From: Rhizobium sp. Q54
Lineage (GTDB): Bacteria > Pseudomonadota > Alphaproteobacteria > SHVZ01
Length of the DNA: 64,000 nt
NCBI GenBank assembly: GCA_945871425.1
Contig: CAMBVS010000007.1
Span: forward strand, 1-64,000
Direction of reading: 5' to 3'
The position numbers and the translations under genes were made by a program. Under the pieces are notes generated by a model. It saw only the letters and a program-made list of their open reading frames with translations, searched no databases and was not told the DNA's origin. The first letter of the stretch is position 1; every line of letters starts with the position of its first letter. Of this stretch, positions 49,925 to 55,406 are shown piece after piece.

Positions 49925-50685
49925 AGATCACCATCCTCGGCTGCGGCAGCTCGATGGGCGTGCCGCTGGTGGGCGAGGGGTGGGGTGACTGCGATCCCAA
50001 CGAACCCAAGAACCGGCGGCTCCGTGCCTCGATCCTGGTGGAGGAGGGCGCGACCCGCCTTCTGGTCGACACCTCGCCGGACCTCCGCCAGCAGTTGCTT
50101 TCGGCCGGGATCAACCGGTTGGATGCGGTTCTTTATACCCACGCGCATGCCGACCATCTGCACGGCATCGACGATGTCCGCGCCATCAACGTGACGCTGA
50201 AGGGCCCGCTCGACGTCTATGCGGACGCCGAGACCCTAGGGATTATCCAGGATCGTTTCGGTTATGTTTTCCAGCCGCTTAAGGGCGATTATTACTACAA
50301 GCCGACACTGGTGCCGCACGTCATCGACGGCCCGTTCCGGATCGGTGACATCGCCATCCGCTCATTCCGGCAGGATCATGGGTTTTCCAAGTCCCTGGGT
50401 TTCCGTTTCGGCCGGGTCGCGTATTCGACCGACGTGCTCACTCTGGACGAGCAAGCCTTTGAGATCCTTGAGGGTGTCGATCTCTGGATCGTCGATGCCT
50501 TCCGCAAGCTGCCGCATGCGACCCACACCCATCTGGAGCGCACTCTGGGTTGGATCGAGCGGGTTAGGCCGAAGCGCGCGGTGCTGACCCACATGACCCA
50601 GTGGCTCGACTACAACTGGCTCAAATCCGTGCTGCCGGCCCATGTCGAGCCGGCCTATGACGGTATGGTCCTGGAAAGCCCGTGA
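49921..50685 (+). CDS. MBL-fold metallohydrolase (PhnP-like)
   Basis: A 254-residue zinc hydrolase starting at GTG. The N terminus ITILGCGSSMGVPLVG and metal motif YTHAHADHLHGIDDVRAIN identify the PhnP/RNase Z-like branch; later ligands are RQDHGFSKSLGFRFG and THMTQWLDY. PhnP is a cyclic phosphodiesterase, and this role is possible here. It normally precedes mazG in Alphaproteobacteria; in this genome the mobile island separates them. Confidence 0.9.
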   Translation: MKITILGCGSSMGVPLVGEGWGDCDPNEPKNRRLRASILVEEGATRLLVDTSPDLRQQLLSAGINRLDAVLYTHAHADHLHGIDDVRAINVTLKGPLDVYADAETLGIIQDRFGYVFQPLKGDYYYKPTLVPHVIDGPFRIGDIAIRSFRQDHGFSKSLGFRFGRVAYSTDVLTLDEQAFEILEGVDLWIVDAFRKLPHATHTHLERTLGWIERVRPKRAVLTHMTQWLDYNWLKSVLPAHVEPAYDGMVLESP

Positions 50686-50958
50686 CCGACACCTGGCGCC
50701 GCGCGGACGGCTACGAGGTCTCGACCGACAAGGCCCGGATCGACCTCGACGTGGTCCACGGCTTCCTCGAGACCGCCTATTGGTCGGAGAAGGCGCCGCG
50801 CGAGGTGGTGGCCCGGTCGATTTAGGGTGCGTTCTGTTTCGAGGTCTTCGATCCGGCCGGCGCCCAGGTCGGCTTCGAGGACGTGCCGGCCGGCCGGCTG
50901 ATGGGGCGCCGGGGGCTGCCGGAAGGCCCGTTATCCGTCAATCGGTTAGGTCATCCAT
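50682..50958 (+). pseudogene. GNAT acetyltransferase remnant, nonsense-mutated and truncated
   Basis: A GTG overlapping the MBL stop opens VTDTWRRADGYEVSTDKARI and continues DLDVVHGFLETAYWSEKAPR, the start of a small GNAT family (ligand-binding N-terminal helix). A TAG at 50823-50825 interrupts it, after which GAFCFEVFDPAGAQVGF continues the fold in the same frame. The remaining acetyl-CoA-binding half is missing. The sequence becomes AT-rich from about 50926 and the IS element begins at 50967. The gene was disabled by a stop codon and by loss of its 3' half. Confidence 0.7.
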
Positions 50959-50966
50959 ACGATATT

Positions 50967-50989
50967 GGCAATAACATACTTGACTCAAC
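50967..50989 (+). repeat. Left terminal inverted repeat of element 1
   Basis: Begins GGCAATAACATACTTGAC and ends TCAAC. It pairs with 53239-53261 at 17 of 23 positions and contains the -35 box of the transposase promoter. Confidence 0.75.
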
Positions 50990-51008
50990 AAGCCTGATCC
51001 GGTAGGTT
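50980..51008 (+). promoter_or_regulatory. Promoter of the element 1 transposase
   Basis: TTGACT (50980-50985) lies inside the left terminal repeat, with TAGGTT (51003-51008) 17 bases away. The expected start of transcription is at or within a base or two of the ATG at 51015, so the mRNA may be leaderless; no Shine-Dalgarno sequence is seen. Confidence 0.5.
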
Positions 51009-51014
51009 TCGGTC

Positions 51015-51986
51015 ATGAGCAAGACCGAGCCGACCACCCTCCTCGAAGCCATCAAGCATTTCAGTGACCCGGACGTGGCGCTTGCCACGATGGTTGAGCT
51101 TCGCTGGCCGTCTGGCGTCCATTGCCCGGGCTGCGGCCGGACGGACGTGACCTTCATCCCGACCCGCCGGGTCTGGACCTGCAAGACCCGCCATCCCAAG
51201 TGGCAGTTCTCAGCCAAAGTCGGGACGATCTTTGAGGACTCGCCCCTCGGCCTCGACAAGTGGTTCGCCGCGATCTGGATGGTCGCCAACTGCAAGAACG
51301 GCATTTCCAGCTACGAGGTCGGGCGCGACCTGGGCGTCACCCAGAAGTCGGCTTGGTTCATGCTTCACCGTATCCGGCTGGCGATGAAGGCCGGTTCGAT
51401 CCTCAAGATGACGGGCGAGGTCGAGGCCGACGAAAGCTATCTCGGCGGCAAGCTCGGCAACATGTCGCTGTCCAAGCGGAAGACGTTCGGTAAGGGCGCG
51501 GTCGGCCGGGGCAACAGCGGCAAGCGGGCCGTCGTCGGCATCCTTGAGCGGAAGTCCGGCAAGAAGCCGAGCAAGGTCAAGGCGACCCACGTCGGCGATG
51601 TTCGCGGCGTCACCCTCAAGGGCCTGATCCGTGACGCCGTCGAGCCCGGCACCCGGCTCCTGACCGATAGCTTTGCCGCATATCGCGGCCTCCGGGGCGA
51701 GTACCTGCATGAGGTCGTCGACCACGCCGTCACCTACGTCCAGGGCACCGTCCATACCAACGGGATCGAGAACTTCTGGTCGCTGCTCAAGCGGACGATC
51801 AAGGGCACCTACGTCTCGGTCGAGCCCTTCCATCTTGACCGCTATCTGGACGAGCAGTCGTTCCGCTTCAACGAGCGGACGGACGTGGACAGCGGTCGTT
51901 TCCGCTCCGTGCTACGCTCGGTCACCGGCCGCCGGCTGACCTACAAGGAGTTGACCGGACATGGTGAAGCCCAAGCCCCCGACTGA
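51015..51986 (+). CDS. IS1595-family transposase (ISXO2-like), element 1
   Basis: A 323-residue DDE-type transposase. The N-terminal zinc ribbon reads VHCPGCGRTDVTF with a second half WTCKTRHPKWQFSAKVGTIF. A helix-turn-helix region (SSYEVGRDLGVTQKSAWFML) follows. Catalytic-core segments are GEVEADESYLGGK, TRLLTDSFAAYRGL and TVHTNGIENFWSLLKRTIKG. The frame is intact, so this copy may be active and could in principle mobilise related ends. The last 26 bases overlap the small passenger ORF. Confidence 0.93.
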   Translation: MSKTEPTTLLEAIKHFSDPDVALATMVELRWPSGVHCPGCGRTDVTFIPTRRVWTCKTRHPKWQFSAKVGTIFEDSPLGLDKWFAAIWMVANCKNGISSYEVGRDLGVTQKSAWFMLHRIRLAMKAGSILKMTGEVEADESYLGGKLGNMSLSKRKTFGKGAVGRGNSGKRAVVGILERKSGKKPSKVKATHVGDVRGVTLKGLIRDAVEPGTRLLTDSFAAYRGLRGEYLHEVVDHAVTYVQGTVHTNGIENFWSLLKRTIKGTYVSVEPFHLDRYLDEQSFRFNERTDVDSGRFRSVLRSVTGRRLTYKELTGHGEAQAPD

Positions 51987-52167
51987 ATGCCGGCCAGACA
52001 GGGACGAGGAAGGCGCCGTGCCCGCCGTGGCCGGCGCTAGTCCCATGGCCCGCTTCAAGACGCTGACGAAGCAGCTGCTCAACGTTTCGCCCGAACAGGT
52101 GAGGGAGGAGCGAAGAGAGTTTGTGGAGAAGCGCTCTAGTCGATCCGAGAAGGAGCCGGGGGCCTGA
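51961..52167 (+). CDS. Small passenger protein of element 1
   Basis: A 68-residue ORF whose ATG lies inside the transposase gene (26-base overlap). The C-terminal part PMARFKTLTKQLLNVSPEQV, then REERREFVEKR, resembles small helical proteins often found behind IS1595 transposases. No function is known. Its 3' end overlaps the convergent protease gene by 32 bases. Confidence 0.6.
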   Translation: MVKPKPPTECRPDRDEEGAVPAVAGASPMARFKTLTKQLLNVSPEQVREERREFVEKRSSRSEKEPGA

Positions 52168-53156
52168 GCCTCGACGGCACGGGCTCCTTGCCTCGCAACT
52201 CGACATACATCGCTTCTGCCTTGGCGTGTTCGGCCAGCAACGGCGCAGTTTCAAGCACTTCCAGAATCTTCCAGGCCGGCACAACGCCGTTCAGCCAAGA
52301 GTTTTCGCCGTCCTCGTCGTGGATGTATCCCCAGTTCACGCCCAAGAGCGCCCAGAATGAGTTATTGCGCACGCTCGTACACCGTATTGGGCGTCCGGTA
52401 GACTGCGACAGGAGATCCCGAGAATCCGGTGCGGGACCTCATTTCGACTGAGTAGCTAAGCTGATCTTGTCCGATCGCACTGTTGGAGATCGGACGGTCC
52501 ATAACGCTGATACTGCCGAAGCGAACCGCCGGTTGGTTGTGCAAGCGCCCCTGATGGTTGATGAAGCGTCCGATCATCAAGACTTCGTCACCGATGCCCA
52601 CCTCATAATCCTGGGCCATCGCCCGGGTGAGGAGTTGTTGGGTCGGAATGTGGGAGTGTCGGTGAATACCGATCATCACCTTCCGGAACACGCTGGCGAC
52701 GGCGAGATCATCGCCATCCGGGTGAACGATCCACTGGTGTTGGTCGAGATCGATGACATCCGGCTTCCCGCCATCCACCCGGTTGACACGAGCTATCGGA
52801 GATCCGCCCGACCAAACGACGTGCCGATTACTGACCAAATATGGGCAATATGCCCCGGTCACTTCGCCGTTGATCACAATGGGCTTGCCGATGAAGAACG
52901 CGGTTCCCCCGAGCCTGGCATGGTTCTCGGCATCTTCCGGGGTGGGATATAGGAAGACCACGCCGTCCAAAAGAGTGTCCGCAATCCGTGGCACTTCATC
53001 TCCCGACAAAGAGTCAGGAAGATTGCACTTCCATGCTTGTCGGTCACTGAAGAAGCCGGGCGGGCAGACTGAAATTCTGCGTCCGCGCCACTCATCGGCC
53101 AGACCACACTGGGCGTCTTCGCGCGTCATCGCTACGGTCGGGGCATCGGTGCCCAT
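52136..53156 (-). pseudogene. Trypsin-like serine protease (cargo of element 1), frameshifted near the 3' end
   Basis: The first frame (52362-53156, 264 residues) holds a complete S1 chymotrypsin fold triad: His in YLVSNRHVVW, Asp in GDDLAVASVF and Ser in SRTGFSGSPVAVY. No signal peptide is seen, so it would be cytoplasmic. It ends TPNTVYERAQ at TAA, but one base over the sequence resumes NNSFWALLGVNWGYIHDED and GVVPAWKILEVL. This is the last strand and helix of the same family, open to 52136. One extra base at about 52366-52370 would explain this. A truncated but triad-bearing protein could still be made. A strong AGGAGG site lies 8 bases before the ATG. Confidence 0.8.
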
Positions 53157-53163
53157 TTTGGCA

Positions 53164-53191
53164 ACCTCCTGAAGCCTGAATCCTAGGAGGT
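53164..53191 (-). promoter_or_regulatory. Hairpin that can sequester the protease ribosome site
   Basis: On the minus strand ACCTCCT (53191-53185) is perfectly complementary to AGGAGGT (53170-53164), which contains the Shine-Dalgarno sequence of the protease gene; the loop is 14 bases. Pairing would hide the ribosome site in a transcript that includes both arms. Confidence 0.5.
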
Positions 53192-53238
53192 CTAGCGTGA
53201 CGTGGCAAAAAACCTTGCTAACGCACTGAAATTCTTAT

Positions 53239-53261
53239 GTTGAGCCATCTATATTAACGCC
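53239..53261 (-). repeat. Right terminal inverted repeat of element 1
   Basis: Read inward on the minus strand it starts GGCGTTAATATAGATGGC and ends TCAAC. It is followed outward by ACAATATT, the near-identical copy of the left flank ACGATATT. Confidence 0.72.
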
Positions 53262-53299
53262 ACAATATTTTCCATAATATACATTATGCGATATAGAGG

Positions 53300-53323
53300 G
53301 GCGAAGTTACGGTTCGCATACCC
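53300..53323 (+). repeat. Left terminal inverted repeat of element 2
   Basis: Begins GGCGAAGTTACGGTTCGC and ends ATACCC. It is preceded by the target copy TATAGAGG and pairs with 55351-55374 at 21 of 24 positions. Confidence 0.85.
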
Positions 53324-53358
53324 AATATCGCATAGGTGAGTTATGATAGCCCCTGTTC

Positions 53359-53380
53359 GGCCCGGCTTTACCGGGCCTTT
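53359..53380 (+). terminator. Terminator-like hairpin just inside element 2
   Basis: GGCCCGG (53359-53365) and CCGGGCC (53371-53377) form a perfect stem around CTTTA, followed by TTTAGTT. It lies between the left end of the element and the DUF3800 coding region. It could block read-through from outside the element or attenuate the cargo gene. Confidence 0.55.
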
Positions 53381-53450
53381 AGTTCAAGCGAAACCGCTGG
53401 GGCTCCAAAGTTTGGTCCCCCGTTCGCTTATCACCGGGAGATGGCTCGCC

Positions 53451-54245
53451 GTGCTGGTCTGCTATCTGGACGACAGCGGCAAGAACCCACAAAGCGCATT
53501 CACCTGCTTGGCGGGATATGTCGCGCTTGAGGAGGTCTGGGCCGAATTCGAGAAGAACGTCGAGCCGATCTTCCAAGAATACAAGGTGCCTGTACTACAT
53601 ACCAAAGAGCTGCATCACAGCGACGGGCCGTTCAAGGGCTGGACCGTCGCCAGGAAACAGGCATTCGTCTTCAAAATCTGCCGCGAAATGACTCCGCTTA
53701 TTCCGTTAGGCGTGGCGATGGCCGCGTCGAAGGCCGCTTATCGCGATGGCCTCAAACACAGAAAGTCCAAGCGAACCGTCAGCCCCTATACCCATTGCTT
53801 CACTGTCGCGGTGAATTGGCTCACCACCGACGTGCGCGTTGGGCATGACATTCATGCCCAAGGGCTCGCTTTCATTTTGGAACAAGGGCACCAAAACAAT
53901 GCCGAGGCAGGGAAGCAGATGCACGGCCTCAGGAAGAAGTATCCCAATGACCTGAAGTGTCTCCGGTCGATTTCGGAGGCTCCCAAGGAAGAATGCCGGG
54001 CCATTCAGATGGCCGACCTCCTGGCCTTCTATACCCGCAGAATGACCGCGCTTAGCCCAGGAGAGAGACGCATAGACGGCCCGGACACCTTGTCTGTTCA
54101 GATGGTGAACATCATCCGCGCGAGCGTCCCCCACCGTTCGCTCGCGGCGGAGGTTTTTGGGGACGACTACGCGTCACTTCCCGGAATGCCCGGTCCCCCT
54201 CTTCCGGGTCTTCCGATGCCCCGACTTCGCGGGCCATCTCAATGA
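53451..54245 (+). CDS. DUF3800 domain protein (cargo of element 2)
   Basis: A 264-residue protein of the DUF3800 family, an RNase-H-like fold of unproven activity common in mobile elements. The hallmark YLDDSGKN lies at the N terminus. Other motifs are VLHTKELHH, an EQGHQNN segment near the middle and the C-terminal IQMADLLAFYTRR. The GTG at 53451 starts just before the first family strand (VLVCYLDDSG). An ATG at 53343 would prepend 36 residues encoded across a terminator-like hairpin, so I disfavour it. The 3' end overlaps the antisense small ORF. Confidence 0.82.
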   Translation: MLVCYLDDSGKNPQSAFTCLAGYVALEEVWAEFEKNVEPIFQEYKVPVLHTKELHHSDGPFKGWTVARKQAFVFKICREMTPLIPLGVAMAASKAAYRDGLKHRKSKRTVSPYTHCFTVAVNWLTTDVRVGHDIHAQGLAFILEQGHQNNAEAGKQMHGLRKKYPNDLKCLRSISEAPKEECRAIQMADLLAFYTRRMTALSPGERRIDGPDTLSVQMVNIIRASVPHRSLAAEVFGDDYASLPGMPGPPLPGLPMPRLRGPSQ

Positions 54246-54315
54246 AGCGCTTGGATTGCTCCGGGTCGTCCGCCTTCGCGGGCGGTTTCGGCAGCGGCTT
54301 TGGCTTGTCCGCCAT
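54112..54315 (-). CDS. Small passenger protein of element 2
   Basis: A 67-residue, highly charged protein starting MADKPKPLPKPPAKADDPEQ, followed by SKRFIEMAREVGASEDPEEG. The D-D-P-x-Q-S-x-R-F-I core resembles a small uncharacterised family seen in many alphaproteobacterial genomes. It lies downstream of and in the same direction as the transposase, the same position as the small ORF of element 1, though the two are not obviously alike. It overlaps the 3' end of the DUF3800 gene on the other strand. Confidence 0.6.
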   Translation of the reverse strand: MADKPKPLPKPPAKADDPEQSKRFIEMAREVGASEDPEEGDRAFREVTRSRPQKPPPRANGGGRSRG

Positions 54316-54398
54316 GGGCCGGTCACTCCTCTTTCAGCGGCAGCCGTAGCTGCCTGAAACGGCGCCGTCGCAAGCGCCGCCAATGCGACCTCTTAGGG

Positions 54399-55318
54399 TT
54401 ACGAGTTACGAGCCGTTTCGTAGGTCAGGCGCTTGCCGGCGGCACCGGCCACGGCACGAGCGGTGCGCTCCTCGTCACAGATGCCGAGCTTCGCGCGGTT
54501 GTTCCGGCGGAAATCAAACTCTGCCAGATACCGGTCGAGGTGCTGAGCATCGACATGCTGGTAGATGCCGACCATGCCCCGCTTGAAGACGCTGAAGAAG
54601 CCTTCGACGGTGTTGGTGTGGACCTCGCCTCGGACGTATTCACCCTTGGCGTGGATGACGACCTCATGAGAGGCGGCGTAGGGCGGGAAAACCTCATGCC
54701 GGTGGCGCCATCGGTCATGACGTGGCTGCCCTTGGCGAGGTGCCGGTACATCTCGGCGCCAGCGCTGGTGCCGTCCATGGAAAGGGTCCGGCTGTCGCCG
54801 TTCCGGTCCACCAGGGACATGATCCGCTGGTAGCGGCGCTTACCGTCCGCCCGCTTCTTGGTCTTGGGCGAGTTGGTGACGAAAGTCTCGTCGATCTCCA
54901 CGGTGTGACCCTCGCCGCCGATCCGGCCCGAGCCCTTGGCCGGAGCCATGGCTTCCCGGATGCGGTGGGTAAGGAACCAAGCGGTGGTCATGCTGCCGCC
55001 GATGGCCCGATGGATCTGGCGGGTGCTGATGCCCTTCTTGGACGAGCAAAGCAGGTGGATCACCTGAAGCCAGATGCGGAGGGCCACGTGGCTGGACTCG
55101 AAAACGGTTCCGACCCGGACGGTGAAGGGCTTGCGGCACGCATAGCACTTGCGGAGCCCCGGACGGGTGGTCTTGCCCTTAAGGCGGCCGATCCGCTCGC
55201 ACTCACCGCAGAACGGGCAAGTCGGGCCGGACGGCCAAAGCCGCGCCTCGACGTACTCGAAAGCGGCGGTTTCGTCGTGGAAGTGGGGGGCGGAGAGCAG
55301 CGACATGGGCGACACCAT
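54399..55318 (-). pseudogene. IS1595-family transposase, element 2, frameshifted
   Basis: Starts MVSPMSLLSAPHFHDETAAF (or at MSLLSAPHF, ATG 55306). A zinc ribbon (TCPFCGECERIG ... LRKCYACRKPF) and DDE segments VEIDETFVTNSP and SHVMTDGATG are intact. After MRF the frame degenerates into Ser/Thr-rich sequence ending at 54425. The correct continuation is one frame over: PPYAASHEVVIHAKGEYVRG, EVHTNTVEGFFSVFKRGM and LDRYLAEFDFRRNNRAK, to TAA at 54399-54401. A one-base deletion in the AAAA run at 54688-54691 (TTTT on the coding strand) accounts for it. The last catalytic residue is lost, so this copy is probably inactive unless complemented. Confidence 0.85.
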
Positions 55319-55332
55319 CAGGTTATGCCCAG

Positions 55333-55361
55333 AATATGCGCCTTGCCGCTGGGTATGTCAA
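55333..55361 (-). promoter_or_regulatory. Promoter of the element 2 transposase
   Basis: On the minus strand TTGACA (55361-55356) is a perfect -35 box inside the right terminal repeat, and CATATT (55338-55333) is 17 bases away. Transcription would start about 8 bases before the ATG at 55318. Confidence 0.6.
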
Positions 55362-55374
55362 CCGTAACATCGCC
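55351..55374 (-). repeat. Right terminal inverted repeat of element 2
   Basis: Read inward on the minus strand it begins GGCGATGTTACGGTTGAC and ends ATACCC. It is flanked outward by TATAGAGG, identical to the left flank. Confidence 0.85.
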
Positions 55375-55382
55375 TATAGAGG

Positions 55383-55406
55383 GGCGATGTTTCACTTCGC
55401 GTACCC
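55383..55406 (+). repeat. Solo terminal repeat of a third related IS1595-type element
   Basis: GGCGATGTTTCACTTCGC then GTACCC matches the left terminal repeat of element 2 at 19 of 24 positions, in the same orientation, and is likewise preceded by TATAGAGG. No transposase or opposite end follows in the next 500 bases, so it is the remnant left end of a deleted element. Element 2 inserted into the flank of this older end. Confidence 0.65.

Follow-up and report, generated by a model that had tools for sequence, protein, structure and literature searches.

The window, that is, the whole stretch of 64,000 nucleotides analysed here, comes from a draft genome of 100 contigs that is 83% complete. 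At positions 53300-55374 it holds a transposon of the IS1595 family (element A) with 24-bp ends and a DUF3800 gene between them, flanked by the 8-bp target duplication TATAGAGG on the left (53292-53299) and on the right (55375-55382). The far-side terminal repeat (53300-53323, plus strand) and the transposase-side one (55351-55374, minus strand) match at 21 of 24 positions, and the mismatches include a TTCGCA variant on the far side against TTGACA on the side of the transposase. When we scanned 47-60 kb for exact 8-bp duplications accompanied by inverted ends, this pair reached 21/24 and the sole other match 15/24. The end pattern is present at three places in the window, with 0.01 expected. 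The earlier note had placed an IS1595-type element with a perfect duplication and 21 matching end positions at exactly these coordinates, and the scan and the profile matches agree with it. We were not able to find an Rfam explanation for the region; the best match, Hrs13, was far below the gathering score.

The transposase gene of A (54405-55318, minus strand) is frameshifted near 54687-54692. Its product matches the zinc ribbon PF12760 with 35.9 bits (cut-off 25.4) and, in the C-terminal fragment, the ISXO2-like DDE domain PF12762 with 60.3 bits (cut-off 27). Together with the terminal inverted repeats and the 8-bp duplication, a length stated in the literature for the IS1595 family, the two domains place A in this family. 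Both fragments match the transposase of locus L045 (85% and 91%), the nearest intact relative, which belongs to a genome of the same genus (G002). Given the frameshift, A may be an inactive copy, or else the frameshift may be an error of the assembly.

The asymmetry of the two ends can probably be read as a transposase promoter. On the minus strand we see a promoter-like pair, TTGACA-17-CATATT, at 55333-55361, with the -35 box within the terminal repeat, so that it reads from the transposase-side end. Furthermore, among the 78 elements delimited as described below, TTGAC is found in 70 of the transposase-side ends and in 19 of the far ends.

Two further genes lie between the ends. A small basic ORF of 67 amino acids (54112-54315, minus strand; cluster c0) is conserved in the lineage. 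The DUF3800 ORF (300 amino acids, 53343-54245, plus strand) matches PF12686 over residues 40-233 (E = 7e-10, 40.2 bits, cut-off 21); its true start is probably the GTG at 53451, and residues 1-30 have low confidence in the structure model. The gene is thus inside the transposon and convergent to the transposase, as had been claimed earlier. Just inside the far end there is a terminator-like hairpin (53359-53377, plus strand), which may shield the cargo against transcription from outside. The segment around it has been retained in G002, and terminator-like hairpins as such are only weakly enriched in the region (5 found, 3.9 expected from shuffles).

On the left of A lies element B, also of the IS1595 family (50967-53261), with the duplications ACGATATT (50959-50966) and ACAATATT (53262-53269). 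It contains a transposase gene (51015-51986, plus strand; PF12762, E = 1.6e-37), a small ORF of 68 amino acids for which no family was found (51961-52167, plus strand), and a trypsin-like cargo gene (52362-53156, minus strand) that clusters with the cargo of two other elements, L044 and L085; the L044 cargo weakly matches Trypsin_2 (E = 0.0085). Note that B is less well delimited than A: its ends are 76% complementary over 25 nt, and its duplications agree at 7 of 8 positions. Next to B, the gene at 50683-50966, which follows an MBL-fold gene, looks like a decayed relic, with a stop codon and a missing internal segment compared with the intact-looking copy in genome G004.

The dif site is the single chromosomal site where linked daughter chromosomes separate. 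The only dif of this genome, the 28-bp ATTTTCCATAATATACATTATGCGATAT, lies at 53267-53294, with the XerD arm on the left and the XerC arm on the right. We used the C and D sites of the ISAjo2 paper (PMC10132070) to tell the arms apart. The 28-mer resembles published alphaproteobacterial dif sites. Its core is formed by the 22 bp that separate the duplication of B from that of A, and the genome has no second copy even when three mismatches are allowed; of 385 genomes of the class, 139 have the core pattern, at about one copy each. The GC skew within the window has no clear sign change at dif. A ends 5 bp outside the XerC arm and the far end of B lies 5 bp outside the XerD arm. The outer 3 bp of dif are part of the 8-bp duplication on either side (in A, they are the first 3 bp of the left copy), so that dif is intact after the insertion. 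The view that A and B are neighbours built on a common plan stands, but it had missed that dif is their common target.

Is this position specific to the transposase of A? In the transposase tree, A falls into a clade of 14 rows (SH-aLRT 99), 12 of which lie directly at dif; one of the others (L093_t) is stacked behind a second element and one (L090) is not at dif. The identical offset to dif is seen for L045-L048, L085-L089, L100, L136 and the second element of L093, and as solo ends in genomes G003 and G004; of these, L048 has a truncated transposase that belongs to a sister clade. Among the delimited elements, 9 of 10 in the clade of A are at the exact dif offset versus 1 of 68 outside it, which is B (Fisher test, 5e-10). 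Members of the clade use both arms of dif and both orientations. When we looked for such ends at 70 dif sites from other genomes, we found none; the best match, 14/24, was equal to that at control positions. For the distant transposase of B, we found no relatives above 43% identity in the 385 genomes that would show its own specificity.

Potentially, the association could go back to common descent: an IS1595 element beside dif in the common ancestor would have been inherited, and history together with conservation around dif, not targeting, would account for the pattern. Within the window's own family, every dif site that we recovered (G000, G002-G006) does have an IS1595 end so placed, and the solo end persists in G003 and G004. 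We nevertheless consider this very improbable, since the clade occupies both arms in both orientations, the 8-bp duplications are not the same, A and B are both absent from G004, and clade members sit at dif outside this family too, for instance in Bradyrhizobium (L089) and a Steroidobacteraceae MAG (L088). Hardly any weight should be given to the idea that the elements merely prefer non-coding, AT-rich DNA around the terminus. Although the target duplications have 74% A+T across the lineage, and other clades use the T-tracts of terminators, a preference of this kind does not fit an offset to dif that does not vary by a single base among 12 clade members, nor the lack of ends at the 70 other dif sites, nor the fact that outside the clade only B and L048 are at dif.

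Directly behind the right duplication of A there is a third end, the solo far-type end GGCGATGTTTCACTTCGCGTACCC of an older related element (55383-55406, plus strand), which agrees at 23 of 24 positions with the far end of L087. It is explained if A entered between dif and the end of the older element. Genome G004, a sister genome in which the site is empty, reads ACAATATTTTCCATAATATACATTATGCGATATAAAGC and then GGCGATGTTTCACTTCCCGTACCC, that is, it has dif without A and B but with an old end equivalent to the one at 55383. That an older end follows the right duplication points to more than one insertion at the same place. The L093 locus is a stack of two elements in the same order as in the window: dif, AGCACTGG, E2, AGCACTGG, E1. 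We also asked whether the 8-bp repeat of A could be an artefact of a 34-bp direct repeat that comes with the third end, and rejected this, since G004 has the old end without A.

Stacking at dif accounts for A and L093 and does not account for abutting cases away from dif, in which, on the side of the transposase, relatives' ends abut the duplication at an offset of 0 or 1 with no dif near (L068 4372-9015, L116 5947, L127 5947, L149 5946, L159 5948). L068 consists of two back-to-back elements with overlapping duplications. Targeting of the ends of relatives was considered for the abutting ends and discarded, as the flanks of 61 elements that are not at dif have no clear likeness to element ends.

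To see how general the cargo is, we took IS1595 transposase loci from the class genomes and from GTDB species genomes (the best 80 of 581) and searched each locus for inverted ends with an 8-bp duplication. In this way 78 distinct elements were delimited, A and B included, with a length of 1831-4097 bp (median 2344). None of the 78 is a bare insertion sequence of about 1.1 kb; all have room for cargo, a statement that is valid for the sampled clades and not for the IS1595 family as a whole. The automatic scan made no call for 24 of the 80 GTDB loci, many because the contig ends. Note that the cargo ORFs were called mechanically, that the coding strand of family c6 is uncertain, and that cluster c1, probably for the most part the antisense reading of the small ORF, has not been counted except for L097 and L154, which match PF12686.

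The general cargo slot that had been suspected from two neighbours is borne out by this tabulation, in which varied genes lie between transposase and far end. A DUF3800 gene is inside the ends, as cargo and not as a flanking gene, in 12 elements according to an all-against-all comparison of cargo ORFs, and in 16 with four additions from Pfam, one of which (L087) is just below the cut-off. Two HEPN-like families occur in 9 and 6 elements, GmrSD_N with HNH in 4, and the trypsin-like family in 3 (B, L085 and L044, the last from the window's own genome). Further cargo includes PIN, NYN, RelA_SpoT, NTP_transf_8, GIY-YIG, Beta protein, SocA/Panacea and nameless families. The same plan, with ends and duplications, is also found on annotated plasmids, with VapC cargo in Methylobacterium oryzae pMOC1 and PIN cargo in Roseomonas marmotae. 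A cargo family of about 220-350 amino acids (c4) is convergent to the transposase in 8 elements (L096, L098, L109, L112, L114, L132, L144, L148); no Pfam family was found in the two copies scanned.

The plan of transposase, small ORF and opposing cargo held in part: a small co-directional ORF is common, but the cargo is not always convergent, some families being co-directional. Small basic ORFs of families c0 and c8 are present in 36 of the 78 elements. The family represented in the window stands beside very different cargo, behind the transposase or behind the cargo (L045, L047, L089, L098, L116 and others). We found no Pfam or NCBIfam match for it in the copy tested, that of L098.

Next, we compared the cargo with the phylogeny of the transposases. 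A tree of 115 transposases has 59 rows with a cargo label; the 11 different labels require 35 changes, where the minimum is 10 and the mean for shuffled labels is 39.4; 1 of 200 shuffles was as low as 35. DUF3800 is fully scattered on the tree, and one HEPN family clusters. As the observed number is this close to that of shuffled labels, the cargo is almost unlinked to the transposase phylogeny, and the slot is exchangeable. The closest relative of A (L045 in G002, transposase 88% identical) gives an example: it shares the backbone and has a HEPN cargo instead. The backbones are 85-88% identical at both ends, and the DNA between about 53389 and 54181 has been replaced; we infer that the cargo was replaced by recombination within the conserved backbone.

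What could the cargo do? In the literature, DUF3800 is described as an RNase H-fold domain that accompanies some CRISPR systems. The model of the DUF3800 protein of A is of middling quality (pLDDT 69), and its best match in the PDB, RNase HII, is weak (E = 0.008, probability 0.97, TM 0.34-0.42) but agrees with this description; an RNase H-like fold is probable. With the DUF3800 proteins of type V-A2 and VI-F CRISPR loci (PMC10910872, PMC12669027) it shares the Pfam family and conserved positions, namely D43 and the region Q222-D225. Unlike those copies, it stands alone within a transposon and has no CRISPR partner. Its identity to the other cargo copies is only 15-24%, and it has no plasmid match. 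In the HEPN-like cargo of L045, the model matches HEPN structures with high probability (1ufb 0.99, 1o3u 0.97) but with E values of 0.4-1. The R-x4-H motif is at its position in most HEPN copies of family c3 that reach that far, with a variant in L047.

Judging from the families found as cargo, the DUF3800 protein of A is most likely a nuclease that acts as a defence or toxin-type module and favours retention of the element. On the other hand, the cargo genes are maybe neutral hitchhikers, captured at random and of no use for defence, as toxins or for retention; many cargo ORFs have no family, and the trypsin-like cargo is not nuclease-like. We think this unlikely, as the recurrent cargo is of nuclease, toxin or restriction type (DUF3800, HEPN, PIN/VapC, NYN, GmrSD-HNH, GIY-YIG, SocA/Panacea) and two cargo genes match defence models of PADLOC, the RelA/SpoT-type gene of L058 (5852-7030) PDC-S33 with E = 4e-100 and the Beta protein of L159 (8876-9880) PD-Lambda-2_C with E = 6e-20. 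A defence or toxin role is the reading suggested by the family assignments.

Taken together, we consider it likely that a lineage of IS1595 cargo transposons is present here, that the clade of A inserts beside dif, and that the DUF3800 cargo is a probable nuclease module. The members would be small transposons rather than bare insertion sequences. Between its two 24-bp ends, each would have an exchangeable cargo module, a transposase whose -35 box lies in the terminal repeat and, in many cases, a small basic ORF. The clade of A would insert at either arm of the chromosomal dif and in either orientation, with an end 5 bp outside the 28-bp site. Stacks would arise when elements insert again and again between dif and a previous one; here A would have followed the element of the old end, and B occupies the opposite arm. 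The transposase might recognise the palindromic dif core, directly or via bound XerC/XerD, and a nuclease-type cargo such as DUF3800 would favour that the element is kept. In this reading, the lineage carries swappable genes and has a fixed address on the chromosome. More tentatively, and with somewhat less than even confidence, we suggest that the clade gives rise to islands at the terminus in which single-gene immunity or toxin modules can be swapped. The transposase would use dif or the bound Xer proteins as a site that exists once per chromosome, and elements would stack at the same spot on both arms and leave dif unharmed.

To our knowledge, site-specific targeting by small DDE elements is uncommon, and we know of dif targeting for one unrelated family only. 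These are the IS1202-family or ISAjo2-type "dif site hunters" (PMC10132070), which likewise leave dif intact and, like A, end 5 bp from its XerC side. They are confined to the XerC side and to one orientation, whereas the clade of A uses both arms and both orientations; and they have a TnsB-like transposase of 441-457 amino acids with a 5-bp duplication, in contrast to the unrelated IS1595-type transposase of about 300 amino acids, the 8-bp duplication and the cargo gene of the clade of A.

IS1595 members with passenger genes ("tIS", Siguier et al. 2009) have already been described, and ISNha5, of an IS1595 subgroup, is cited as carrying a transcription regulator (PMC11891212). The transposase domains, the 8-bp duplications and a plan with passenger genes outside transposition are common to these and to our elements, and A likewise has a gene that is not for transposition, DUF3800 at 53343-54245, between its ends. 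The differences from tIS as described there are that all delimited members of a broad set, mostly from Alphaproteobacteria, have cargo, that it is swapped between transposase lineages, and that one clade is tied to dif. Toxin-type genes also recur in Tn3-family transposons with toxin-antitoxin passengers (PMC7157771); our elements differ from these in the transposase family, in the single slot with many cargo types and in the dif address. In the literature open without subscription, we found no paper that names both IS1595 and a dif site, and no report of IS1595 at dif. As far as this literature goes, what is new here is an IS1595 clade that works like a dif hunter without belonging to IS1202, together with the exchangeable cargo slot.

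A further dif hunter, independent of the first and using both arms, would suggest that dif is a safe landing site in general, and makes it testable whether the DNA or the Xer protein is recognised. Furthermore, the slot would allow single genes of the nuclease, toxin or defence-like kind, many of them without a family, to pass between genomes, and could therefore be mined for new ones.

Finally, we see that other IS1595 clades seem to insert into the T-tracts of intrinsic terminators (L112, L117, L050, L052, L106, L144, L135, L157, L158). In 16 of 68 cases, the target duplication has at least six T or at least six A, and a stable hairpin lies beside the A-tract sites (mean -15.0 versus -5.0 kcal/mol).
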